Under the pieces are notes generated by a model. The model was not told the origin of the DNA. It saw only the letters and a list, made by a program, of their open reading frames with translations, and ran no database searches. From Diphasiastrum complanatum (lineage: Eukaryota > Streptophyta > Lycopodiopsida > Lycopodiales > Lycopodiaceae): a stretch of DNA of 64,000 nucleotides. A program made the position numbers and the translations under genes. The DNA lies in assembly GCA_029204225.1 (NCBI GenBank), contig CM055092.1, positions 99,636,651-99,700,650 of the forward strand. Direction: 5' to 3'. Positions 27,414 through 59,332 of the stretch are shown in pieces (within the stretch, counting starts at the first letter, position 1; each line of letters opens with the position of its first letter).

Positions 27414-28310
27414 TTATTCCCAAAAATCATCGAGGTCATTTACATCTTTTTCTTTTTCTTGAGTAGCCACCGTACTTTCAAGTGGCACCTCTTCTATAGT
27501 TTCCTCGACTACCGTAGCCACATTATAATCTTGAACCAAGACATCAACAAATTCTCTTGTGTCGCCTACTTTTCCGCTGGCAGGAGGCTGAGGTTCCTTG
27601 GACAAGGGAATTACTGAATCCTCGCTATCTAAACTCTTTTCCACCTCAAATAGTTCATCTGGCAAAATTGAAAGAGATTTCTTTCTCATTTTTACAAAAT
27701 CAACTAAATTAGTATCTAAATCTATTGCAGCAACATGTCTGCATTTCTGAACAACACATGCGCTCGTAGTGCCGCTACCGCTAAATAAATCCAAAACCCA
27801 ATCAGCTGGGTGAGAAAAAATATCAATTAAATGATTAATTAATTGTTGTGGCTTCTGGTAGAGACAAGCCACGGAACCCGTCATTGGATTCTTTAATTTT
27901 TTTGTCACGGTTGGATATTGGAACAAGTTTCTAAAACTTGTTAGCCTGGAAGTGTTGTAATGAAGCATCGAGCATTTGCCATCCAAAGAATAATAACCGA
28001 TGGATATGTATTCTACTTCATTGCAAAGTCGTGCTCCTCTCGAGTTTCTGACATTTCGGCAATGCAGAGTGTATAAGGCTTTTGTTTTTAAATTTTAAAA
28101 TTTCTCTGCAATCATCCTCCTCAATCGAGTAGAAGCATGGTTGATCATCGACACTTTTGGGAAGGTAGGTCTCTAATGGATCCTCCTCCGCAATGGTCTC
28201 ACCCCGTGCCAATATCTCCCTGTCCCCTTTTTTTGCTTTTCCCTTTAGAATATGTCTTTTAAATTGCTCTGGAAGGACTTTGTTTTTCTCATCTTCGATA
28301 GATTGAAAAA
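27414..28310 (-). pseudogene. Beta-class DNA methyltransferase (N4-cytosine/N6-adenine type), C-terminal part, frameshifted
   Basis: Such enzymes methylate the exocyclic amino group of cytosine or adenine in DNA. The frame ending at 27414 has YQKPQQLINHLIDIFSHPA, then WVLDLFSGSGTTSACVV, the S-adenosylmethionine-binding FxGxG motif, then HVAAIDLD. Placement of FxGxG near the C-terminus after a 'QKP' block marks the beta-class order. An acidic tail ends ..DDFWE. Upstream, another frame (28018 to about 28310) reads LPEQFKRHILKGKAKKGDRE, RGETIAEEDPLETYLPKSVD and IEEDDCREILK. It joins the first frame only through a frameshift near 28085, after which NEVEYISIGYYSLDGKCSM follows. The catalytic (D/S/N)PP(Y/W/F) motif is not found, so this is inactive. 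Plant N4-cytosine methyltransferases are reported from Marchantia sperm; kinship is inference. Confidence 0.8.
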
Positions 28311-30935: not shown

Positions 30936-31755
30936 TGTTGAATTTCACACGTGTGGATTGTCCACTACATGTACTTGTGATCTCCTAAGGTGTGTAGATG
31001 CACCAAGATCAAGACTAGATTGAGATTCAAGATCTATCTTTGATTCTATGGCAAAAACACACTACTACATGCATTCAATCACTTCCAACTCTCACTCACA
31101 CGTGTGGGAAGTGTTCCAAAAGTATTCTAAGTAAAAACAAGCTTCTCTCCTTGGGTAGAGAGAGAAAAACCATCATGAGCTCTCGGGTAGAGAGAGAAAG
31201 CTAGAAATTCAATGACACTCAAAATCCACTCAATCTCAAAATCAATTAGATCCAAAAGGAGGAGTACAATGATACTAATAGATTCATGAGCTACCACTAT
31301 GCTTAACTATGATTGGATCACACTTTGCCACCTCTTAATCCTATTGGACCATTGATCCATGCACCTCTAAATTCTATTGGACTATATTCAAGCACACCTC
31401 AATTTTCTATTGGACCTCACAAGGTTCCACCTCTAAATCCTATTGGACCTCTTAAGCTTCATCAAACAAAAGCATGACACTTGTCTACACTCTAATTGGC
31501 ACAAGTTTGGCTCTATTTTGGCTCAATAGTGGCATTACAAGTGGAAATGGATAATTTGCCATCTATGCCAAATTTGACCCTATCAACATCCTACACCTAA
31601 ATGCTTGACTATGAAATTCTATGAGACCCCTATATCAAACATTTTGATTTACTTTACAATTCTCCACACGTGGGAACATCCTCCACACATGTGAGTTTCA
31701 CTTACAAACTTCTATCATAAAAAATACCAAGCTAAATTTTTGCCAATTTCTCACA
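30936..31755 (-). repeat. 3' LTR of the TR-GAG-like element 1
   Basis: Termini TGTTGAATTTCACACG and ATTTCTCACA on the plus strand, so TG...CA on both strands. It contains two gggtagagagagaaa copies (near 31144 and 31184). Confidence 0.93.
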
Positions 31756-31878
31756 CTCCTCAAAAAATAGCTTGGAAAGGTACTAGATCACTTGAGAAGT
31801 TTGTAAATCTTTTTGAGTGGATCCTTTGGTATGCATAAGAAGTGAAGATCAGCCAAGGGATCCATCATAGCAGCACCC

Positions 31879-33366
31879 TCACCATATCCATGATAAGATC
31901 TCTTTGGTAGAGATCTCTTGCCAATGCCTTTGAAGAGTGCTCCACCAATATGCCACTATTATCATGGGCTTCCTCCATGCTTGATGATGATCTTTGCCTT
32001 GAAAGTTCCACTTGCATGATGGATGCACCATAAATAGAGAAATACGAGGCTTCCAAGCCTCATAAGGATCATGGAGATCAAGATCATAAGATGTGAAACA
32101 ATGATGATTATCAAGATTATACTTTCTAGCTTGACTAGTCCACATACAATGAACTATATCCATGATGGATCTAATCTTGATATCAAAGACTATCTTGATC
32201 TTTTTTAGGCTAGTTACTCTCTCAAGGATGTAAGTGTCCACTTTGGATGCTTCACTTAATCTCAAGAGGAGTTTACAATTTGCCTCAAAACATGTGAAAA
32301 CATGATTTTCAAAAAAGTGAGTACCAAGCTCAATCTTGTTCTTACTAGAACCAAGAGCATACTTTTGACAATACAATATCTTGCTTTCAAAAAGTATTGG
32401 AAACACATCTAATTCAATAATGACAAGAAACATGTCCATACCATAAGCATCATACAAAACTAGTATAGCTTTTCTTGAACTTTGAGATCCAAAAAATTCA
32501 ATGAAGCAAGATAGCATTTCAAGCAAAGGAAGAGAAGCATATATGAATGTGTTGTAGTAGATACAACATGAAAGATGCCCCTCTTTGCCATGTAAGGTGA
32601 GCCATAAAGACTCGGCCATGCATCTTAAAGATCTTCTTGAAATCATATGAAGAAGAAACTCCTCCTCACACATTGGCCCCATCATAACTTAAATACCTTC
32701 AAAAAGGATAACTTGTGATGCTTCTTGAGAAGCCTTGATCTCGGCCACTTCCAAGATTGAATCTTCATGCAATATGACATCTCTATTCACCATCACATTT
32801 GAAATAGAGAGTGTAAAGACACTAAAGGCCTCCTTGATGGATGAGTATCCAATCATGATCCATGAGCTTGGATCATCCTTCCTTCTTGTTTCCAAGGGAA
32901 TATATGCAAAGCAAGCACTACCAAGTTCACTAAGGTGATCAACCTTAGGCTTCATCTTGAATAAAACTTCATATGGTGCTATTCCTTCAAGAGCTCCAAT
33001 ACTCCTCAAAGCTTTGATCTTCAATGAGAATTTCTTCTCAACATATGCTTTGAATAATAAGGAATAATCATACACCATAATACTTGAAGAGAGAAGATAT
33101 GTGCATCTTGTGTGATCCTCCTTTTTTGAAATATTGGAAATATAAGAAACATCAAGAGAGTTTGCACTCTCACTTGGATCAAATTTGTAGATGCCTTCAA
33201 ATCTTGATCCATATGCAAGGATCTCACCATCCTTCTTAATCACACAATTGTCAATATTGAAATTGACATCAAAGCCACTATCAAGAAGTTGGCCAACACT
33301 TGATGTTCTTTGTAAGCTTTGGGACAAAAAGAACATTGTTGAGAAAGAGATATTTAGAAGATGCAA
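31879..33366 (-). CDS. Second reading frame of TR-GAG-like element 1: pre-integrase, integrase C-terminus, unknown region
   Basis: Reading leftward, SVGQLLDSGFDVNFNIDNC and KKDGEILAYGSRFEGIYKF form the Copia pre-integrase start. Soon after come GIAPYEVLFKMKPKVDHLSE, CFAYIPLETRRKDDP and MVNRDVILHEDS, the integrase C-terminus. The zinc finger and D,D-35-E core between them are deleted. At 32689 a single TAA interrupts the frame, which then stays open in the same phase for 268 codons to 31879 with no recognised domain (SEASKVDTYILERV, HVFTCFEANCKLLLRL). The frame lies one base out of phase with gag-protease. Whether the unknown part is translated is open; its length without stops suggests recent coding or chance preservation in a young element. 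Confidence 0.6.
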
Positions 33367-34450
33367 GCTTCAAGGGAATAATCCCTACTCCTTCAATATT
33401 GCACTCATGCTTACTTGCAAAATATATGGTCTTCTTGACTCCATCATAAGGCATAATAGATGAAAAAAAGTGCTTGGAGCCACACATATGTGAAGATGCT
33501 CCACTATCAATATACCATGAGTCATCCTTGTTGAAGGTGGAAGAGGAGAAGCTTGATGCCATAAGAGAGCCTTCTCCATCACTTGCAATATAGTCTTCTT
33601 TCTCATTGGTGATGTTGGCTTGATTGAGTTGATTCTTCTTCTTGAAGCAATTGGTGTCATAATGGCCTTTCTTGCCACAATAAAAGCACTTGATCATCTT
33701 CTTCTTGAGATTTGAATTAGAAGCATGAGAGGTATCCTCCTCCTCTCCATCTTGGTCTTTAGCTTTGTCATTAGAGAAATGATGGTGTTGCTTCTTACTC
33801 CTCTCTTTGTGCTTGGCAAATAGAACTTTGCCATCATCATGATTGAGTGATAGCTTGTCCATCCTCAAGAGTTTGTACTCTTGTCTTGATTCTTCAGAAA
33901 TAAGCACACTTTGAAGGGCCTCCAAACTTGGTAGCTCCTCCTTAATAGCATAGGATTGGACAAGGTTGTCATATTCATCTCTCAAGCCATTGAGAATGAC
34001 TTGGACTAGCTCACTTTGATTGATTGAGTCACCAATACATGCAAGCTCCCTATGAATATCCTTGACCCTCAAAACATAACTAGATGCACTCTCATCACTC
34101 TTTTGGCTACTTTGAAAGATTTGATTCCTAAGAGTGAGAAGCCTAGAGGTATTTTTAGCCTCATAGATAGTCTTGAGACAATCCCAAGCTTCCTTGGATG
34201 TAGAACAATCACCAATCTCCCTCAATGTCTCATTAGAGACATTCATCTTAATGTAGTGGAGAGCCATCCTAGCTCTCTTCTTGTATTTTTGTACTTCTTG
34301 AAGGACTTGAGGCTCCTCCTCAATCCCAAGTACAATGTCCATCACATCTTGGAGTATCAAGATGGACTCCATCCTCAACTTCCATATTGAATAATTGGAA
34401 GTAGACAATCTCTCACTTGGTTGCAACAAGTATGAGCTCATTGAAGTCAT
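33281..34450 (-). CDS. Gag-protease of TR-GAG-like element 1 (389 codons)
   Basis: Forms the virus-like particle of the retrotransposon. It starts at an ATG (MTSMSSYLLQPSERL) and contains, in order, the Copia Gag signature YSIWKLRMESILILQD (near residue 20), the capsid region (SKEAWDCLKTIYEAKNTSRL, YVLRVKDIHREL), a basic linker, the CCHC zinc knuckle CFYCGKKGHYDTNC (about 260-273), and the aspartic protease active site WYIDSGASSHM (about 320). It is intact through the protease and ends KCWPTS, one base out of phase with the pre-integrase frame. Gag and protease look functional as far as can be read. Confidence 0.93.
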   Translation of the reverse strand: MTSMSSYLLQPSERLSTSNYSIWKLRMESILILQDVMDIVLGIEEEPQVLQEVQKYKKRARMALHYIKMNVSNETLREIGDCSTSKEAWDCLKTIYEAKNTSRLLTLRNQIFQSSQKSDESASSYVLRVKDIHRELACIGDSINQSELVQVILNGLRDEYDNLVQSYAIKEELPSLEALQSVLISEESRQEYKLLRMDKLSLNHDDGKVLFAKHKERSKKQHHHFSNDKAKDQDGEEEDTSHASNSNLKKKMIKCFYCGKKGHYDTNCFKKKNQLNQANITNEKEDYIASDGEGSLMASSFSSSTFNKDDSWYIDSGASSHMCGSKHFFSSIMPYDGVKKTIYFASKHECNIEGVGIIPLKLASSKYLFLNNVLFVPKLTKNIKCWPTS

Positions 34451-35195
34451 GTAAAGTGGAGATAAATAAAAGTGATGAACAAAAAATGTTGCTTCTCTCT
34501 CACTATAGGATCCAATAATGGTGTGCTACCATCTCCTATGCAAGATCTTGCAACAAACTGTGAGATGATTCTCACTAGCTATCTCAATCTCTCCAAAACT
34601 AGATCTACTTCACATCAAATGATGGAGTATGGGCAAAGTTAGGATCAAACACTCTTAGCACGTGTGAAATACACTAAGAAACCAAATTTGACTCAAATAC
34701 AATGATATTGCATGAAACAAAATGGCTAAGATCTCAAAACAGTGCCTAGATCACATATAGATGAGATTGGTAAGCATTCAACTGTGATTTTGGATCAAAC
34801 AAGCAATCTTTTGACCAAACCAAATGTGTCCACCCAGGTCTAGGTGCCCTACCTAACCCTCTTCAAAATCTTATAACTTTTGATTGGCTCAACCAAATGG
34901 AATGAAACTGATTGCATCAGAAACTAGACAAAAATAGCTTCAAAACAAGCTATCTAGCAAGATTTTTGGATCAAACATGAAAGAGAACTCCCAAACTGAA
35001 ATTGGATGTTCCTCACACGTGTCTGAGCACCTGATTTCGTACAGTACCAGGTCAGACCCAATCAATGTCCTTTTGATCTCTTTTGATCCAAAATTGAACA
35101 AGATAGCTAGGAAAATGGGCCTTGACAATTTCTAGCTCAAGATTGATGAATAGTTTTCACTCAAATGGATCAAAATGCATGGTAACCTTAGGTAG

Positions 35196-35207
35196 GCTCT
35201 GATACCA
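35196..35207 (-). promoter_or_regulatory. Primer-binding site (initiator Met-tRNA) of TR-GAG-like element 1
   Basis: gctctgatacca on the plus strand is TGGTATCAGAGC on the element's strand, directly next to the LTR end (...CAACA). Confidence 0.93.
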
Positions 35208-36026
35208 TGTTGAATTTCACACGTGTGGATTGTCCACTACATGTACTTGTGATCTCCTAAGGTGTGTAGATGCACCAAGATCAAGACTAGATTGAGATTC
35301 AAGATCTATCTTTGATTCTATGGCAAAAACACACTACTACATGCATTCAATCACTTCCAACTCTCACTCACACGTGTGGGAAGTGTTCCAAAAGTATTCT
35401 AAGTAAAAACAAGCTGCTCTCCTCAGGTAGAGAGAGAAAAACCATCATGAGCTCTCGGGTAGAGAGAGAAAGCTAGAAATTCAATGACACTCAAAATCCA
35501 CTCAATCTCAAAATCAATTAGATCCAAAAGGAGGAGTACAATGATACTAATAGATTCATGAGCTACCACTATGCTAACTATGATTGGATCACACTTTGCC
35601 ACCTCTTAATCCTATTGGACCATTGATCCATGCACCTCTAAATTCTATTGGACTATATTCAAGCACACCTCAATTTTCTATTGGACCTCACAAGGTTCCA
35701 CCTCTAAATCCTATTGGACCTCTTAATCTTCATAAAACAAAAGCATGACACTTGTCTACACTCTAATTGGCACAAGTTTGGCTCTATTTTGGCTCAATAG
35801 TGGCATTACAAGTGGAAATGGATAATTTGCCATCTATGCCAAATTTGATCCTATCAACATCCTACACCTAAATGCTTGACTATGAAATTCAAGGAGACCC
35901 CTATATCAAACATTTTGATTTACTTTACAATTCTCCACACGTGGGAACATCCTCCACACATGTGAGATTCACTTACAAACTTCTATCATAAAAAATACCA
36001 AGCTAAATTTTTGCCAATTTCTCACA
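35208..36026 (-). repeat. 5' LTR of the TR-GAG-like element 1
   Basis: Near-identical to 30936-31755, with one 1-bp indel and about nine substitutions noted by eye, including clusters at the gctgctctcctcagg and attcaaggag segments. Confidence 0.93.
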
Positions 36027-40712: not shown

Positions 40713-40829
40713 GCATTTTAGTAATCTGTTTTTTTTTTATTGCGGATTATTAGTCGTGTTTCTATCAAGACAACGTTTTAACAAGCGCACAACAAACAAT
40801 ATTCCAAAATTGTTGTTACTACCAAAGAT

Positions 40830-41911
40830 CTCGCTCAACCAAAATGAATCTGTCTTTTCTAATCGAGAGACTCGATGGAGAGAACTATTGTCTCTAGAAG
40901 CTAAAAATGAAAGTCATGTTATCAGCCAAGGAACTGTGGGACGCTGTTGATGGCACAAAAGTCAAGCCAGAAGGTGATGCATCCATTATCACCAAATGGA
41001 AACTGAGAGATGGCAATCACTCTCAATATCAAGGATACATAGATAATTCCCATACGTAATGCTCAGATAGGAGATGCATGGGACATTCTAGCATCCCTAC
41101 ATGATATCAAGAATGTTTATACTTCCAAGTTACATTTGACGAATAAATTTTTCAACCTAAAGATGTCTGAAGTAGAAAGTGTTACAAGTCATATGAACAC
41201 TTTCAACAATCTTATGGAGTAAATGGCTGCAATCGACTCAATCATTGAAGATTCTGATGCTATTATGAATCTACTATCGAGTCTACCTGAAGCCTATAAA
41301 AATTGGATCATGATAATTTTGACCCAAGAGCAAATCACTCTATCAAGAGAAATTTTGATGTTTCTACAAGAGGAAATCAGAAAATCTACATCCTCCTCAG
41401 GCTCAGGGTTGGATCCTCAAGCTCTATATTCAAAAAATTAGAAGTTCAGATCGAAAAAGAAGAGCAATATGCAGCCAGGGTCGAATTTTGGCTCTGGGTC
41501 GAATTTTGACTCAGGGTCCAATTTGAACCCTTCATCTTTCCAACCAAAGTAGAAACTTTTCTGCAGATACTGCAAGAAAACTGTACATGAAATCAAGGAC
41601 TGCAAAACGTTGAAATATAACAATGAGAAAAAGTAGTACCAACAACAAGCACATAAGACCAAACAACATGATATCGATTCCTGATATCTCGATTCTAGAG
41701 CAACACAACATATGACTCACCACCAAGACTGGTTAAAATATTATAAATCTTTCAGCCACTCTCGAGTTGTGCAACTAGGAGACAACTCATCACATTCTAT
41801 CCATGGTGAAGGAATAGTAAGGATCGAATTTCAAAAGGGTGATGTCAAGTTGCTGTCCAATGTTCTCCATGTACCAAATCTGACCAAGAACCTACTCTTA
41901 GTTAGCATAAT
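40830..41911 (+). pseudogene. Copia Gag-protease pseudogene
   Basis: Broken frames follow one another: IERLDGENYCL (Gag start), LKMKVMLSAKELWDAVDG, KWKLRDG, then AIMNLLSSLPEAYKNW and QITLSREILMFLQEEIRK. The zinc knuckle CRYCKKTVHEIKDC and protease YLDSRATQHM follow, with VVQLGDNSSHSIHGEGIVRI and NVLHVPNLTKNLLLVS after them. The protease motif reads D-S-R rather than the usual D-S-G, as in the related fragment at 49440. Several frameshifts and stops make it nonfunctional. It is cut at 41911 by the TRIM. The Gag part is duplicated at 51933-52370. Confidence 0.9.
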
Positions 41912-42194
41912 TGTGAAAACGTTTTACACTTGGTGTGTGTGGTCAGGCTAGGGATTGAACATAGGACTTCCCCCATTCAAGTGGGGTGCTCTACCACTAA
42001 GCTACCCGTCCATCTGTGTTCCAAGAGTGTTGTGCAAGGTCTATAGCCTTGACACTTTCTAACACTCCCCCTCAAGGCATAGCCTTGTTTAGCTACTACC
42101 CGCCTAAACCACACCCACAACCATGGCTCTGATACCATGTGAAAAGTTTTTATACTAGGTGTGTGTCAGGCTAGGTTTTGAATCTAGGATCTCC
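41912..42194 (-). mobile_element. TRIM (miniature LTR element) whose LTR holds a tRNA-like sequence
   Basis: The left LTR is 41912-42064 (153 bp, TGTGAAAACG...TTTCTAACA on the plus strand, so TG...CA both ways). The internal part is only 73 bp (42065-42137). On the minus strand the internal part opens with TGGTATCAGAGCCA (42124-42137), a strong initiator Met-tRNA primer-binding site abutting the right LTR. It closes with a purine tract, TTGAGGGGGAG, abutting the left LTR. The right LTR (42138 to about 42194) is truncated after ggatctcc, where DUF4216-coding DNA begins. LTR, PBS and PPT without coding sequence, and a total under 400 bp, define a TRIM. A decayed relative lies at 52371-52486. 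Confidence 0.8.
41941..42011 (-). other. tRNA-like cloverleaf (71 nt) inside the TRIM LTR
   Basis: Minus strand: acceptor GGACGGG / CCTGACC pairs at 6 of 7 positions counting one G-T, with T8-A9. The D arm is GCTT-AGTGGTA-GAGC. The anticodon arm is CCCCA-CTTGAAT-GGGGG with T33 and A37. The variable loop is AAGTC. The T arm is CTATG-TTCAATC-CCTAG with one mismatch. A-box TAGCTTAGTGGTAGAGC and B-box TTCAATC are in place for RNA polymerase III. The anticodon position would read TGA, but there is no long variable arm, so it is not an ordinary tRNA-Ser gene. It is best read as a tRNA-derived module of the element. Confidence 0.75.
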
Positions 42195-42829
42195 ATGAAG
42201 TGTGTTTTGGTGAAAATGGTAAATATTTTTTGTTTGATGTGAAATAGTTCAAAATCAATTATCAAGAGTCAAATGCAACCGTGAAAAGAGATCGTAGTGG
42301 ATTTTTTGCTATCGATTCAACCAAGACATTAAGCATGAATTTTTCAAACACATTGGTGCTGCCTCATCATTGTGAACAAGTGTGTCACATGAGTTTGACA
42401 TCCATTTTTTCTCAATCATAATCAGTAATATACAGTATTTCAATGCAATTTCATGACATTATTGGAACAAATTTTTTAACTTAACATTGTTAAATGTGCA
42501 GGTATTTTTTCAACCAGATCCACTAAACAACAAGTGGTGATATGTTGTTCGAGTTAGCCATGAGCAAGACATGTATTTGAAAATGGATACATTGAGAATG
42601 AAATGGAGGACTTGAATATTGACAACACAAACATGGACGTTGATGAGGATATAGAAATATCTCCAAGTTTTTTTAATATTATAGAAAATACTATAAATGA
42701 ATCGAATGATTCTGACACAAACGACAATATTGAGAGAGTCCGATTACTATAGCACTGATGATGAAATTCATCTAAGCGGGGATGAGTTGCAAGATGTACT
42801 GGCTGATGAATTTGAATCTTGTTATGATG

Positions 42830-42833
<4 letters not shown>
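42195..42833 (+). pseudogene. CACTA-type DUF4216 protein fragment, copy 1
   Basis: DUF4216 proteins are encoded by plant En/Spm (CACTA) transposons. The frame reads KVCFGENGKYFLFDVK (stop), FKINYQGSNATVKRDRSGFF, AIDSTKTLSM and LPHHCEQ. A GT at 42373 and acceptor gtgcag| at about 42492 join to VFFQPDPLNNKW and YVVRVSHEQDMYLK, which matches the DUF4216 end pattern ('QVFY..D....W..VVR..PRDMY'). An acidic tail follows in another frame (MEDLNIDNTNMDVDEDIEIS). One stop replaces the Trp of 'VKWF', and frames shift, so it is dead. Copy 2 at 52488-53108 keeps DVKWF. Confidence 0.65.
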
Positions 42834-42863
<30 letters not shown>

Positions 42864-43420
42864 CACTACCATTTATGTGATAAAATAATAGTTTGCATAA
42901 TTATTGCATCTCTATAATGCGTTCTTGTATTTTTCAAATTCATCTTGAGTTCTATCTGGCAATCACTTATGATTCATTTTAAATCAAATGCTTTCACTGC
43001 AATCTATATCTTATTAAAGATCTACCGAAAATTGATTGACCAAATAAGACAATTAGTAAACATACATTGATCATTTATATATGCTTAAAAAATAATTTTC
43101 TTTTGAAACATCCTTACTATACTAAAAATCTATATATTAAAACAATATCTTCATATCTTCACTTTGGTTGAAATAACTTTTCTTTTCAAATAAGAAAAAA
43201 AACTGTAGATATATTCTTGTTGGTTTCGATATTCTTTCTTTGCTTGTTTGCTAACATTGCTTTTTGTTCATCAACAAATTTTTGGAACATAATAATTTCG
43301 TCATAGCATAATAATTTGACATCATGATCATTTGATTTTTAGCTCAAAATCATGATCACATAATAATCATTTTATTATTAGTCAACACTTATTTAAAATC
43401 TCAAAAGAAGTATTATTCAA
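42834..43420. other. AT-rich spacer, 3' part of the CACTA remnant
   Basis: Begins with a (TA)n run (about 42838-42863) and is collinear with 53117-53960. No gene. Confidence 0.5.
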
Positions 43421-43439
43421 ATTAATCCAACTTATTGGA

Positions 43440-43650
43440 ATTTTCTGAAAATTTGCCACGCGTGGCAAATCTCCATAATTACACTTTGAGTGAAAGTTGG
43501 TTAAATAACAGCCATGCGTGGCACTTCCACACATGGCTCAACCATGACAATCACTTTATTACTAGACCCCACTTCCAGCCTGGATTTTCTCGGAGTACTT
43601 TGGCGTGGATGTGCCACGCATGGCAGAGCCACACAAAAGTCTCATATATA
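43440..43650. repeat. Subterminal palindromic repeats of the CACTA remnant
   Basis: A perfect 20-bp palindrome ATTTGCCACGCGTGGCAAAT occupies 43451-43470. Imperfect relatives occur at about 43510-43540 (AGCCATGCGTGG / CCACACATGGCT) and 43610-43637 (TGCCACGCATGGCA, then gagccacac). Clustered short inverted motifs near the end are typical of CACTA transposons, where the transposon's own binding protein attaches. The terminal CACTA sequence itself is not seen. Confidence 0.6.
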
Positions 43651-46138: not shown

Positions 46139-47640
<1,502 letters not shown>

Positions 47641-51770: not shown

Positions 51771-51932
51771 AGACCCTTTGTAAAGATTCTTTTTATATTT
51801 TTTCACAAATTTTTCTTACACATGGACCAATCAAAACACTCAAATTCGAAATCTACGTAACGTAACTTTTTGAGTCCACATTTTGATTCCATACTAAAAA
51901 TGACATAACTTTTTAGTGGTAATCTGAAATCG
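51771..51932. other. Junction sequence of unknown origin
   Basis: 160 bp between the Gag breakpoint and the start of the duplicated gag/TRIM/CACTA block. Nothing recognised. Confidence 0.35.
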
Positions 51933-52370
51933 TTGTTACTACCAAAGATCTCGCTCAACCAGAAAGTATCTGACTTCTCTAGTCGAGAGACTCGATGGAG
52001 AGAACTATCATCTCTAGAAGCTCAAAATGAAAGTCACGTTATCAGCCAAGGAACTATGGGACATTGTTGATGACACGGAAGTCAAGCCAGAAGGTGATGC
52101 ATCCATTATCACCAAATGGAAACTGAGAGATGACAAGGTATACGTAATTCACATATCATGGATACATAGATAATTCACATACGTAATGCTCAGACAACCA
52201 AGGATGCATAGGGCATCCTAGCATTCCTACATGATATCAAGGATGTTTATACTTCCAAGTTACATTTGACGAAGAAATTTTTCAACCTAAAGATGTCTGA
52301 AGTAGAAAGTGTTACAAGTCATATCAACACTTTCAAAAATCTTATGGAGCAAATGGCTGCAATTGGCTCA

Positions 52371-52486
52371 AGGCATAGCCCTTTTTAGCTATTGCCCGCC
52401 TAAACCACACTCACAACTATGGCTCTAATACCATGTGAAAATTTTTTATACTTGGTGTGCGTGGTCGGATTGAACATAGGGCCTCC
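52371..52486 (-). mobile_element. Decayed TRIM remnant, second copy
   Basis: Internal region (aggcatagccc...ctatggctctaatacca, primer site with one change) followed by a truncated LTR (TGTGAAAATTTTTTATACTT..., from 52434). It is truncated at the same place, just before the DUF4216 sequence, so it is a duplicate of the first copy and not a new insertion. Confidence 0.7.
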
Positions 52487-52487
52487 C

Positions 52488-53108
52488 ATAAGTGTGTTTT
52501 AGTGAAAATGGTAAATATTTTTTGTTTGATGTGAAATGGTTCAAAATCAATTATCAAGGGTCAAATGCAACCATGAAAAGAGATCGTAGTGGATTTTTTG
52601 CTATCGATTCAACCAAGATATTAAGCATGTATTTTTCAAACACATTGTTGTTGCCTCATCATTGTGAACAAGTGTGTCACATGAGTTTGACATCCATTTT
52701 TTCTCAATCATAATCAGTAATATACACTATTTCATCGCAATTCCATGACATTGTTTGAACAATTTTTTTTAGCTTAACATTGTTAAATGTACAAATCGAC
52801 TAAACAACAAGTGGTGGTATGTTGTTCAAGTTAGCCACGCACAAGACATGTATTTGAAAATGCATACATTGAGAATGAAATAGACGACTTGAATATTTAC
52901 AACACAAACATAGACGTTGATGAGGATATAGAAATATTTCCAAGCTTTTCAAATATTATAGAAAATACTATAAATGAATCGAATAATTCTGACACAAACG
53001 ACAATATTGAGAGAGTCCGATTACTATAGTACTGATGATGAAATTCATCTAAGCGGAGATGAGTTGCAAGATGTATTGGCTGATGAAATTGAATCTTGTT
53101 ATGATGAA
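52488..53108 (+). pseudogene. CACTA-type DUF4216 protein fragment, copy 2
   Basis: CFSENGKYFLFDVKWFKINY, MKRDRSGFFAIDSTKILSMY and LLPHHCEQV are better preserved than in copy 1 (Trp kept in DVKWF), but the exon after the intron has lost its start (VFFQPDP is largely deleted). The acidic tail (IERV, FESCYDE-like) remains. Inactive. Confidence 0.65.
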
Positions 53109-53116
53109 TAAATTAT

Positions 53117-53192
<76 letters not shown>
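53117..53192. repeat. (AT)n microsatellite, about 76 bp
   Basis: It occupies the position of a run of about 26 bp at 42838 in the paralogous block, so it has expanded (or the other contracted) since duplication. Confidence 0.95.
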
Positions 53193-53195
<3 letters not shown>

Positions 53196-53959
53196 AACCA
53201 TTTATGATAAAATAATAGTTTGCATAATTATTGCATCTTTATAATGCATTCTTGTATTTTTCAAGTTCATCTTGAGTTCTATCTGACAATCACTTCTGAT
53301 TCATTTTAAATCAAATGCTTTCACCGCAATCTATATCTTATTAAAGATCTAGCGAAAATTGATTGACCAAATAAAACAATTAGTGAACATACGTTGATCA
53401 TTTATATATGCTTAAAAAATAATTTTCTTGTGAAACATCCTTACTATATTGAAAATCTATATACTAAAACAATATCTTCATATCTTCACTTTGGTTGAAA
53501 TAACTTTTCTTTTCAAATAAGAAAAGAAATTGTAGATATATACTTGTTGGTTTTGATATTCTTTCTTTGCTTGTTTGCTCAATCCACAATGTTGACAATG
53601 CAATTCATCACAATCAAGTACACACAATCATGCAAATTATATATGAATTCACATAGTCATGCACAATCATGCAAATTATATATTCACATAGTCATCATAT
53701 ATTCACATTATAATATGAGAGATAATAATATACTTTTTCGCAGTGTTCGATTATTCATTCATCTTTGCAAACACAAAAACATACATAACAATGTTTTTTT
53801 TTCATCAACAAATTTTTGGAACATAATGATTTTGTCAGAGCATAATAATTTGACATCATGATCATTTGATTTTTAGTTAAAATCATGATCGCATAATAAT
53901 CATTTCATTATTAGTCAACACTTATTTAAAATCTCAAAAGAAGTCTTATTCAAATTAAT

Positions 53960-54160
53960 CCAACTTTTTGAAATTCTCTAGAAATTTGCCACTCATGGCA
54001 AATCTCCAGAATTACACTTCGAGTGAAAGTTGGTTAAATAACAGCCATGTGTGGCACTTCCACGCGTGGCTTATCCACGACAATCACTTTGGCGCTCATT
54101 TTTTTAAATTCTATTTTAAAAACAAATTGTGTGGTACTGCCACACATGGCAGTGCCACGC
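53960..54160. repeat. Subterminal palindromic repeats, second copy
   Basis: atttgccactcatggcaaat (decayed from the perfect 20-mer), agccatgtgtggcacttccacgcgtggct and tgccacacatggcagtgccacgc. The palindromes have drifted at CpG positions. Confidence 0.6.
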
Positions 54161-54756: not shown

Positions 54757-55458
54757 GTGTGAAGAATTGCCAAAAATTGGCAAATCTAGGTTGATCAAAA
54801 ACCATGTAGAATAGTGTAAATTGTGTACACAAGTGGGTCCCACACATGTAAGGCCATGATGCCACATGGGAAACCCATCCTAATGTAGGTTAGGTCAAGT
54901 CAAGAGAGTTGGTCATGTCTATTTGGTGGTCATCCCTACTTTATAGGACCTACACCTAAGTTTAAGGTGAAAATTTGACCAACTAGCTACCTACCAAGCA
55001 TAACTCTAGGAAATAGACTAGGGTTTCATTTTAGGTCAAGGAGAGTGAGTTAACTTCCTTATTATATGCTGGAAATCCACCTAACTTCAAGAAGAAAGTC
55101 GAATTTGCTATGTATTCCCTCTCTCCATAGTGAGTAGATAGAAAATTTTTGGAACTCATTGGCAATCTCAAGCTAGTTCACTATGTACATTGAGTTTTTG
55201 TGATCCAAATGAAACCAAATCAATTTCTACTTGTTTCTTAGGTTGAAGGCCGTATTACAGTCTGTAGTACACACGTGTGGGCTCGGATTTCAATGTTTAT
55301 CGATGCTTTTGATTGTTAATGCTTGTTGTTTGTCAAATTGCCAATCTAGATCAACTTTTTTGTGTCTAGTTTTTTGATAGATTGTTAAGCAAGCATCCAA
55401 TCACTCTTGTGGATCTTTTGTAGATCCATTTATGGTCCTAAAGTACAGTACTTTCACA
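54757..55458 (+). repeat. 5' LTR of TR-GAG-like element 2
   Basis: TGTGAAGAATTGCCAAAAAT to ACAGTACTTTCACA. Short inverted termini TGTGAA/TTCACA. Confidence 0.93.
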
Positions 55459-55470
55459 TGGTATCAGAGC
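55459..55470 (+). promoter_or_regulatory. Primer-binding site (initiator Met-tRNA) of TR-GAG-like element 2
   Basis: TGGTATCAGAGC, immediately after the LTR. Confidence 0.93.
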
Positions 55471-56263
55471 CAAGTACAAGAGCATAAGCCATTGATCTAA
55501 TGCAAATCCATTTTTAGCAAGTTTTGGTGCTAAAAACTAGTATTGAGAGGGCAAGCTAGAATCTTGATTTTGGTGAGGAGATTTGATCCCAAACTTGGTA
55601 GGGGTCCAAATCCCTACTGTCCACATGTGTGGGCACCTCTGAACCTGCATTTAATGCATGGTATTCATTTAATCCAAAAAAATTCAATTTGTGAGCTATT
55701 GGTGTAATTTTTGGTGGAGATCTTAGGATAATCTACCAAGATCATTTGCCATTGATTAGATTTGAATTTGTTTCATGAAATCTAATTAATCTAGGCTGAG
55801 TTCAAGTCCTATTAAGGTTAAAAACAGGTCTTGAAAGTACACCAAGAAGGAAGAAAGAGATTAAGTCATTTTTTTGTCCAAAAATAGCCAAATTTGACAA
55901 GATTTGATTGTAAGTAGATTTCACATCATCTTATCTTCATTCCAACTTTGTGAGGGAGTGCTAGAACTGAGATTATAAGTCCATTTGTTGGATTAGAAAT
56001 CTAATTTGAGTGAAAAACTACAAGAGAGAGACCTTAGTGAGTTTCTAGATACAATCAAATCCATTTCTTGGCAAGATTTGTTTGAAAGTAGTTTTCACTT
56101 CATCTTATCTTCATTCCAGCTTTGTGAGGGAGTGATAGAACTGTGATAATAAGTCCATTTGTTGGATTAGAAATCAAATTTGAGTGAAACACTACAAGTG
56201 TGAGACCTTTGTGAGTTTCAAGTCAATCAAATCTATTTCTTGTTTGTAGAAGTCACTAGTAAG
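55471..56263 (+). other. Leader of TR-GAG-like element 2 with an internal repeat of about 170 bp
   Basis: gtagatttcacatcatcttatcttcattccaactttgtgagggagtg near 55913 recurs with a few changes near 56087, followed in both by gtccatttgttggattagaaatc. Packaging or leader function is possible; no coding frame. Confidence 0.6.
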
Positions 56264-57364
56264 ATGGGATCTGCTGGAGCATACCTTCTAGAAGCTAGTG
56301 AGAGGTTGAATTCTACAAATTATGCTATTTGGAAGGTTAGAATGGAGTCACTCTTAGTGCTCCAAGACCTTTATGAGTTCTTGATTGAAGATGAAGATGA
56401 ACCTCTAGGTGCACAGGAGTTACCTAGATACAAGAAGAGATCTAGGCTTGCACTTCGTTGTGTGAAGATGAATGTGAGCAATGATTTGTTGAGAGAAGTA
56501 TCAGCCTGTACTAATGCTAAAGAGGCTTGGGAGTCTTTAAAATCAATCTATGAGTCTAGCAACACTTCTAGAGTTCTTATGCTTAGAAATCAAATTTTGC
56601 AAAGCATGAGGAAAAGTGAGGAGAGTGCACAAGATTATGTACTCAGAATCAAGTCTCTAAATAGGGAGTTGGCTTCCATTGGAGAGAAGATTCATGATGG
56701 AGTTGTACAAATTGTCCTTAATGGTCTAGGAGATGACTTTGCAAATTTGGTCCAAAGTTTTGCCATCCAAGACACTTTGCCAACTATAGAAAAACTTCAC
56801 AGTGTATTAGTGGCTGAAGAGTGTAGGATGCTCCATGCAAAATCTAGGATGAGTTCCTTGTCTTTGCAAGATGGTGATGAGAAAGCCAATTTCTCATTCA
56901 AGGGCAAAAAGAAGACCAATGGAAAGAAGAAGCATCCAAAGCAGGCCAAAGAAGAGGATGATGCATCAAGCTCAAAGGACAAGTCAAAGCAAAAATGCTT
57001 CTTTTGTGGAAAGAAGGGGCATTATGCATCTAAATGCTACAAGAGGCTAAGAGCACAAGTGGAGGAGGACAAACAAGGAAACCTTGCAAAGGAGGAGGAG
57101 GAGGATGAAGTAGATGTATTCTTGATGGCATCTACATCCTCACCAACAAGCAATAACAATTCAAGAGACAATTGGTGGATTGATAGTGGGGCTAGCTCCC
57201 ACATGTCTTGTGAAAAGGACTTTTTCTCAACCTTACACTCATTCAATGATGCTAAAAAGTTTGTCTTTACTGCAAATGATGAAGAGTGTAGGATAGATGG
57301 TGTTGGCACCATCTCTTTGTGTCTAGAATCCTCAAAATGCATGGATCTAGAAAATGTCCTTTAG
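56264..57364 (+). CDS. Gag-protease of TR-GAG-like element 2
   Basis: I choose the ATG at 56264 (MGSAGAYLLEASERLNSTNY), which matches the start of other Copia Gags. Domains in order: AIWKVRMESLLVLQDLYEFL, capsid blocks (NAKEAWESLKSIYESSNTSR, AQDYVLRIKSLNREL, TLPTIEKLHSVLVAEE), basic linker, CCHC knuckle CFFCGKKGHYASKC, acidic stretch, protease WWIDSGASSHMSCEKDFF with the D-S-G triad, and FTANDEECRIDGVGTI. It stops at 57362 in 'ENVL', one base short of the pre-integrase frame. It is open and well conserved. Confidence 0.93.
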   Translation: MGSAGAYLLEASERLNSTNYAIWKVRMESLLVLQDLYEFLIEDEDEPLGAQELPRYKKRSRLALRCVKMNVSNDLLREVSACTNAKEAWESLKSIYESSNTSRVLMLRNQILQSMRKSEESAQDYVLRIKSLNRELASIGEKIHDGVVQIVLNGLGDDFANLVQSFAIQDTLPTIEKLHSVLVAEECRMLHAKSRMSSLSLQDGDEKANFSFKGKKKTNGKKKHPKQAKEEDDASSSKDKSKQKCFFCGKKGHYASKCYKRLRAQVEEDKQGNLAKEEEEDEVDVFLMASTSSPTSNNNSRDNWWIDSGASSHMSCEKDFFSTLHSFNDAKKFVFTANDEECRIDGVGTISLCLESSKCMDLENVL

Positions 57365-58416
57365 TACCATCAATCACCAAGAATATGATTAGTGTTGGTC
57401 TACTCTTAGAAAGTGGTTTGGATGTCCACTTTAAGCATGGTGTTTGCTTCATCTTGAAGAATGATGTTTGCATTGCAAAGGGATTTAGACATGAAAGATT
57501 GTTTAAGTTGGAAGCTAGTGTTGCTTTTAAAAGAATGAGCTTGGCAAAGGAGGAGATCACTCAAGATGAGATCTTGGCAAAGTGTGATCTTGCTTGCATT
57601 GAGGAGGAGCATCAAAAGGAGGAAGACCTTGAGGATCAGCCTCAAAGCATGAGAGTTCCAAGGGAGTCCTCAATGACAATGTTTGAGTCATCAAATTGCA
57701 TGCAAATTGTCCATTCAAGTGTGCATCTTGCAAGGGTGGTGAGCATTGGAGAGTCTACTATCTTTGAATACTTTTTGGAAAGTATTAGTAGACATGAGGT
57801 GACTTGTTTCTTACCTTTAAGATTCATGGTGTTTATTACTTTGTATGACAAGACAATGAAATGGGATGCTTTGAAATCTACATTTGTTGTTGATAAAGCA
57901 ATTTCATTGGATAACTATTTTTGTAATAGTTTGAATAGTGTCATAAAAGATGAAACATCATTTGTATTGGAAATCTTTGGGTCCACATGCTTTGAGCATG
58001 ATCATTCCAATGTAAGGACCAAAGATTATCCTATTTCAATGATAGGAATAATGGTAGTGTTTTGCTCTTCAAGTAGAGATTGTAGAATCTACTTGTTTTC
58101 AGCCAAAGAATTTGTCAATGGTGGAAATGTGATCTTTCAAGAGTGGAAGATTTGTAAACTTGAAGAAGCACCTTTGGATCAACACCTTATTCAATTCATT
58201 GATGGTTTGGAGTCAAGTCAAGTGGAGGAGCAAGCTCAAGACCCGAGGACTCCAAGAAGAACCTTGAGTATCGAGATGGAGCCATCTAGGCTCAATCATA
58301 TGGATCAAGCAAGACAAGTTGTCTTTGGCAACATTATTTATGCACTTAATATTTTAATTGATTTATCTTCAAGTGCACAAAATGCCTTGGAATCCATGGC
58401 TTGGCATGATGTTTAG
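57365..58416 (+). CDS. Downstream frame of TR-GAG-like element 2 (about 350 codons, unknown)
   Basis: The first part is Copia pre-integrase: VPSITKNMISVGLLLESGLD, CFILKNDVCIAKGFRHERLF, KLEASVAFKRM. After an acidic Gln/Glu stretch (EEEHQKEEDLEDQPQ) it turns into sequence with no recognised domain (MFESSNCMQIVHSSVHLARV, FLESISRHEVTCFLPLRF, ALKSTFVVDKAISLDNYFC). It ends with a linker-like EEQAQDPRTPRRTLSIEMEP, which resembles the stretch between Copia integrase and reverse transcriptase. It stays open with no stops over 350 codons, although integrase and reverse transcriptase are gone. It is one base out of phase with gag-protease. Confidence 0.6.
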
Positions 58417-58626
58417 TTTTGAAGTGTGCTACATGTATATAGACACATTTATGGAACATCTTGTAAGGGATCCTCTAAGAGGTGGTGAAAGATCCTTCAT
58501 GGACATCATTCTCTATTGGAGTCTCAAAAGTTCCTTCTTTGTAGCTGGATTTTTTAGACACTTCTAAAAGCTTTCATTGATCTATCAAGAGAGTTGTAAA
58601 TAGATCAAGCTAAATTTGAGGAAGAG

Positions 58627-59327
58627 TGTGAAGAATTGCCAAAAATTGGCAAATCTAGGTTGATCAAAAACCATGTAGAATAGTGTAAATTGTGTACACA
58701 AGTGGGTCCCACACATGTAAGGCCATGATGCCACATGGGAAACCCATCCTAATGTAGGTTAGGTCAAGTCAAGAGAGTTGGTCATGTCTATTTGGTGGTC
58801 ATCCCTACTTTATACGACCTACACCTAAGTTTAAGGTGAAAATTTGACAAACTAGCTACCTACCAAGCATAACTCTAGGAAATAGACTAGGGTTTCATTT
58901 TAGGTCAAGGAGAGTGAGTTAACTTCCTTATTACATGCTGGAAATCCACCTAACTTCAAGAAGAAAGTCGAATTTGCTATGTATTCCCTCTCTCCATAGT
59001 GAGAAGATAGAAACTTTTTGGAGCTCATTGGCAATCTCAAGCTAGTTCACTATGTACATTGAGTTTTTGTGATCCAAATGAAACCAAATAAATTTCTACT
59101 TGTTTCTCAGGTTGAAGGCCGTACTACAGCCTGTAGTACACAGGTGTGGGCTCGGATTTCAATGTTTATCAATGCTTTTGATTGTTAATGCTTGTTGTTT
59201 GTCAAATTGCCAATCTAGATCAACTTTTTTGTGTCTAGTTTTTTGATAGATTGTTAAGCAAGCATCTAATCACTCTTGTGGATCTTTTGTAGATCCATTT
59301 ATGGTCCTAAAGTACAGTAGTTTCACA
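58627..59327 (+). repeat. 3' LTR of TR-GAG-like element 2
   Basis: Aligned end to end with 54757-55458. Termini TGTGAAG...GTTTCACA. Confidence 0.93.
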
Positions 59328-59332
59328 TGTTG

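Follow-up and report, generated by a model that had tools for sequence, protein, structure and literature searches.

A tRNA-derived module in both LTRs of an abundant TRIM family of Diphasiastrum complanatum

The window, i.e., the entire stretch of 64,000 nucleotides analyzed here, harbors a truncated TRIM on the minus strand (41912-42194), which consists of a 57-bp remnant of the 5′ LTR (42138-42194), a 73-bp internal region (42065-42137) and a 153-bp 3′ LTR (41912-42064). The 3′ LTR is complete with TG...CA ends (TGTTAG...CACA), and the same boundaries were seen again in copies elsewhere in the genome. The internal region starts with a primer binding site (PBS), TGGTATCAGAGCC (42125-42137), placed directly at the LTR end and which we take to be of the initiator Met tRNA type, and terminates in a polypurine tract (PPT), CTTGAGGGGGAG (42065-42076), directly at the 3′ LTR; both lie on the minus strand. 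The original prediction, made from the sequence of this stretch, had described a TRIM with an LTR of 153 bp and an internal region of 73 bp with PBS and PPT at its ends, and all these parts were found on the minus strand, the PBS being 13 bases long instead of 14. The 3′ LTR is whole, but the 5′ LTR breaks off within the tRNA-like part and is cut to its last 57 bp; hence, the window copy is a fragment without a comparable TSD. Since only 44 of 54 comparable bases of the 5′ LTR remnant were identical to the 3′ LTR, the copy is an old one.

The 3′ LTR contains a tRNA-like sequence (41940-42011, minus strand) in the direction of the element, and the 5′ LTR remnant includes the 3′ half of the same part. 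The Rfam tRNA model (RF00005) matched from 42011 to 41940 with 48.2 bits (E 3e-7, whole window searched), and ARAGORN called a tRNA from 42011 to 41939, its sole call in 64 kb; when the window was simulated 40 times with a first-order Markov model, ARAGORN called none. Both calls agreed with the predicted orientation and placed the end of the unit one to two bases beyond the predicted limits (41941-42011). An A-box-like motif, TAGCTTAGTGG (41994-42004, minus strand), and a B-box-like motif, GTTCAATCC (41952-41960, minus strand), presumably represent the two promoter boxes, to judge from their match to the box consensus. A run of four T (41916-41919, minus strand), 4 bases short of the LTR end, is a possible polymerase III terminator. 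The complete cloverleaf that had been predicted was recovered by the covariance model but not as the lowest-energy fold of the window copy, which contained no cloverleaf and did not exceed shuffled sequences in stability (z -0.43). Folding of four other copies gave a cloverleaf in two and a near-cloverleaf in one, with no excess stability over shuffles in any of the four (z -0.46 to -0.89). The anticodon loop of the window copy has 6 bases according to ARAGORN and 7 bases in the Rfam alignment, which takes a non-pairing A-G as stem; the T33 reported in the original prediction stems from this 7-base reading.

The 3′ LTR end of the TRIM adjoins a Copia pol fragment (Pol_BBD; 41685-41911, plus strand), the match of which reaches profile position 77 of 81 and ends at most 4 bases from the boundary; this fragment is probably the insertion target of the TRIM. 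The other flank, within a duplicated block, showed a weak match to DUF4216 (E 0.016, below the cut-off). The block (40807-43557 and 51927-54090) is duplicated as three pieces of 88-92% identity, and both copies of the block carry a TRIM remnant. The second remnant (52367-52487, minus strand) comprises the truncated 5′ LTR and the internal region and is without 829 bp found in the first, the gap being bordered on either side by CTCAA. As the two copies share one duplicated block and the same truncated 5′ LTR junction, both derive from one insertion, and the second was not counted as separate evidence that the element transposed. Further duplicated stretches were located at 18438-19562/44969-46137 and 19402-21086/24171-25828. 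The window also contains two Copia elements, both with a PBS of initiator-Met type, one on the minus strand (30936-36026; LTR pair of 820 bp, 98.8% alike) and one on the plus strand (54757-59329; LTR pair of 704 bp, 98.0% alike), along with a reading frame (27414-28094, minus strand) matching the Pfam DNA methylase family N6_N4_Mtase (E 3e-12; two relatives found, 61% and 38%) and a long GA/CT dinucleotide repeat (46886-47140).

A search of the genome (1.74 Gb, 5176 contigs) with the element gave 79 matches from the 40 scored of 591 first-look candidates. Thirty-nine stretches were fetched, and 33 were treated as complete elements of one family, designated family A; this included L013, L039 and L042, in which one LTR match ended 2-4 bases early and was extended. 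The array L048 and the copies L019, L020, L030, L031 and L038, with a 5′ LTR incomplete in the BLAST layout, were excluded from the TSD count. The 33 copies represent the best-matching part of the family and are hence biased to well-kept copies. They measure 375-379 bp (LTRs 152-153 bp, internal regions 69-73 bp) and possess a PBS and a PPT, and an exact 5-bp duplication (TSD) flanks 22 of the 33. Grouping by shared flanks reduced them to 24 loci, with a TSD in 14 by hand count, one of these within a CT repeat. The LTR pairs at the 24 loci differ by a median of 2.6% (range 1.3-6.5%), indicating fairly young copies. The 39 stretches yielded 81 Rfam matches (36-61 bits), every one of them to tRNA, within an LTR and in the correct direction; each of the 66 LTRs carried one, exactly two per complete copy (33/33). 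The proposal of a TRIM with a tRNA in the place of the 5S sequence of Cassandra was thereby supported in both LTRs of 33/33 complete copies, and full copies with LTRs lacking the tRNA-like part, sought as counter-evidence, numbered 0/33.

To the same unit belong 1617 genome matches (787 + 830, at most 2 mismatches) of a 25-base piece from its A-box side, the reversed control giving 0 matches. A less biased sample was drawn from the 100 exact matches listed for this piece, merging neighbors and skipping places already analyzed, which left 40 places with 49 exact units. The LTR was found on both sides of the unit in 40 cases and was cut on the 3′ side in eight; the remaining unit (L059) consists of the 5′ tRNA half only, directly after an LTR end and an altered PBS. 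The free SINE form, which would have contradicted the TRIM identity, was thus represented by 0/49 units in this sample of exact matches to the family A piece, a sampling by which a diverged SINE relative would be missed. An exact TSD was present in 2 of 11 two-LTR copies of this sample, and two more matched at 4/5 bases. Family A is thus shown to have the anatomy of an LTR retrotransposon with TSDs, dispersal and tandem arrays, and the window element is a decayed, 5′-truncated member of this abundant TRIM family, with a tRNA-derived module in each LTR.

The module has kept the promoter boxes and not a decoding tRNA. The A box TAGCTCAGTGG occurs in 54/66 and the B box GGTTCAATCC in 59/66 LTRs of the other copies, i.e., in most copies examined. 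ARAGORN called 64/66 family A LTRs, and in 62 of these calls the anticodon had two letters, so that nearly all called units depart from a functional tRNA gene, for which a readable anticodon in a 7-base loop is expected. Among genome matches to the tRNA model, 58 of the 63 scored (from 84948 candidates) reached 66-75 bits, above the 36-61 bits of the TRIM units. The family A unit showed at most 65.3% identity to 20 high-scoring tRNA genes of the genome, a set that does not span all isotypes. These features suggest that the tRNA-like part may act as a promoter, without a decoding role. An MK-like test for selection in the two boxes, which compared their changes (2 inherited, 12 post-insertion) with those in the rest (27 and 96), was not significant (p 0.73).

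A second family of tRNA-carrying LTRs, family B, was encountered in two sampled stretches (L069/L095) and is seen, over a longer stretch, as an array of the form LTR-internal-LTR-internal-LTR on C3 (C3:4648000-4650520; L094 1169-1830). Its LTRs are 142, 144 and 144 bp long and its internal regions 116 bp, with the PBS TGGTATCAGAGCC and a PPT. All three LTRs matched the Rfam tRNA model (30.5, 47.3 and 50.0 bits), ARAGORN called Ile-GAT in two of them, the A box was exact in 2/3 and the B box GGTTCGAATCC was present in 1/3. The array is nested, with TSD GTGGT, in an LTR of a family A copy, and this host copy (TSD AGAAT) in turn interrupts a third LTR with a tRNA, behind which lies a PBS-like sequence. 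Families A and B agree at 60/74 bases of the tRNA part and have similar internal regions (score reached by 0/300 shuffles), with the LTR flanks near the shuffled level (2 and 16 of 300 shuffles). This pattern suggests that the elements are related and retained the tRNA module, or that the module was exchanged.

Tandem arrays were also observed in family A. On C18, six LTRs in the same direction are joined to one inverted LTR (L051 3176-4471), and three gaps of 29-30 bp each still hold the PBS start and the PPT. The inverted LTR terminates the array, so that both array ends are LTR 3′ ends, flanked by TATGT and TATGC. On C6, seven or more full LTRs follow one another (L082). Separately, among the copies L027, L032, L049 and L043, the octamer TGATACCA, the reverse complement of the PBS start, immediately precedes the 5′ LTR in three, and TGGTATCA immediately follows the 3′ LTR in one; in L032 and L043, these sequences stand beside an apparent Copia LTR end. 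It is possible that they are leftovers of primer-containing cDNA.

Four or more consecutive T near the LTR end (position 145-146) were present in 62/66 family A LTRs, and such a run in 0/33 internal regions. On this layout, polymerase III would start in the 5′ LTR, close to its tRNA-like part, by means of the A and B boxes, pass the weak four-T stop ending the 5′ LTR and halt at the equivalent four T of the 3′ LTR, giving an RNA of ∼320 bases. R (∼96 bases) would begin at the tRNA-like part and end with the four T, and U5 would comprise four bases, an arrangement that requires some read-through at the first four-T stop. The RNA would then be reverse transcribed by proteins of a Copia element with initiator Met tRNA as primer, and the copy integrated. 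A 5-bp TSD and this type of PBS point to a Copia helper, and it is on these two features that the helper is proposed. The search for an autonomous partner compared the two Copia elements of the window with the TRIM internal region and LTR, and none scored above 30 shuffles; these two were rejected as the helper. In yeast, polymerase III is described as continuing beyond weak terminators, in typical cases for 50-200 bases (PMC4937561), and Cassandra is treated as the tested precedent for polymerase III in PMC10886601 and PMC12786077. The model cannot be extended to family B as far as the terminator is concerned, since no four-T run occurs in the three LTRs and two internal regions read. Transcription by polymerase III is the likely mechanism as read from these motifs. 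The complete explanation, i.e., a TRIM with the tRNA module of its LTRs as polymerase III promoter, a read-through RNA and Copia proteins, was given a probability of about 0.72. The interpretation of the original prediction is supported, transcription by polymerase III being a probable part of it.

The strongest competing explanation retains the same TRIM and has polymerase II make the genomic RNA, polymerase III producing at most a separate tRNA-like RNA of ∼96 bases that ends at the LTR four T. It accords with the review in PMC12786077, by which most plant LTR elements use polymerase II, and with the position of the four-T run soon after the tRNA-like part in 62/66 LTRs, where a strong stop would cut off the transcript ahead of the PBS. 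However, only 53 bp of the LTR lie upstream of the tRNA-like part, and this part is the sole LTR stretch clearly common to families A and B. Genomic RNA made by polymerase II was judged a minority possibility, at odds of about one in five.

The other explanations deny either the TRIM or the place of the module in it, and each was considered highly improbable. An ordinary tRNA-derived SINE with coincidental LTR-like repeats would share with family A the tRNA-derived boxes A and B, which run in the direction of the element. SINEs insert by a target-primed mechanism; family A differs from tRNA-derived SINEs in having LTRs, PBS, PPT and 5-bp TSDs, as observed in 33 two-LTR copies with LTRs of 152-153 bp (TSD in 22/33), and all 49 units of the exact-match sample lay within TRIM sequence, which refutes a SINE identity for the sample of 40 places. 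The late insertion of a SINE into one LTR could be entertained for the window copy, in which only the 3′ LTR is complete, but it is refuted by the tRNA-like 3′ half in the 5′ LTR remnant and by the module in both LTRs of 33/33 complete copies. A cellular tRNA gene lying near repeats by chance would account for the tRNA model match in the window, but not for the occurrence in both LTRs (33/33), the 1617 genome matches, the odd anticodon loop and the identity of at most 65.3% to 20 tRNA genes, and was likewise discarded.

Relatives of the TRIM were looked for in other sequence collections, with 0 matches in viral contigs and three in prokaryote genomes, and no relative emerged. Two of the three gave 0 ARAGORN calls; the other, in a cyanobacterial MAG (Trichormus, CAKZGI010000079.1), has the reading frames of a Copia-like retrotransposon, is 5 kb long and lacks a tRNA match, and it was probably introduced as contaminating DNA of the plant in which the symbiont lives. 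At gathering score, Rfam found no 5S rRNA in the window or in the 39 stretches, where all matches were to tRNA. Family A resembles Cassandra in carrying a small-RNA gene with a polymerase III promoter, putative in family A, in its LTRs, in the same PBS and in tandem LTR arrays, as Cassandra is described in PMC7215508, but differs in that Cassandra carries 5S rRNA and family A a tRNA. SMART and other plant TRIMs are similarly very short non-autonomous LTR elements, whereas the word tRNA does not occur in the main texts of PMC3281118 and PMC4717578.

The original prediction knew of no described TRIM carrying a tRNA; such elements were published in 2024 by Kojima (PMC10886601), who gave the name Helenus to TRIMs whose LTRs include a tRNA-like part and proposed TRIMp3 for polymerase III TRIMs. 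According to that account, Helenus is known mainly from fungi and animals and may have had several origins, and a working polymerase III promoter is expected of its members without being a condition of membership. The sole plant family characterized there is Helenus-1_SMo of the lycophyte Selaginella (LTR 120 bp, internal region 85 bp); among the matches listed in a literature search, with subscription papers mostly outside its coverage, no further plant tRNA-carrying TRIM was found beyond Helenus. Family A shares with Helenus the TRIM form of less than 1000 bp with two LTRs, PBS and PPT (33 of 39 stretches, 375-379 bp), the tRNA-derived sequence in the LTRs (66/66) and, with plant and fungal Helenus, the 5-bp TSD (22/33 exact; 2/11 in the less biased sample). 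It is set apart from Helenus-1_SMo, as described in PMC10886601, by its lengths (LTR 153 bp, internal region 69-73 bp), and further by its abundance and its coexistence with a second family. Family A is thus a new, abundant plant Helenus family. A wider picture can be offered tentatively, as one that is rather doubtful in its entirety: this lineage might hold a large multi-family group of tRNA-carrying TRIMs, in which the tRNA module would be the sole selected stretch of the LTR, polymerase III would read through between two four-T stops and the LTR arrays (units of ∼180-260 bp) would form scattered promoter clusters like the 5S-like arrays of Cassandra. Tallies of tRNA genes in such genomes may be inflated by TRIM LTRs. 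With fairly young copies, more than 1600 matches of the 25-base piece and a second family, the polymerase III question posed by Helenus becomes testable in a plant.
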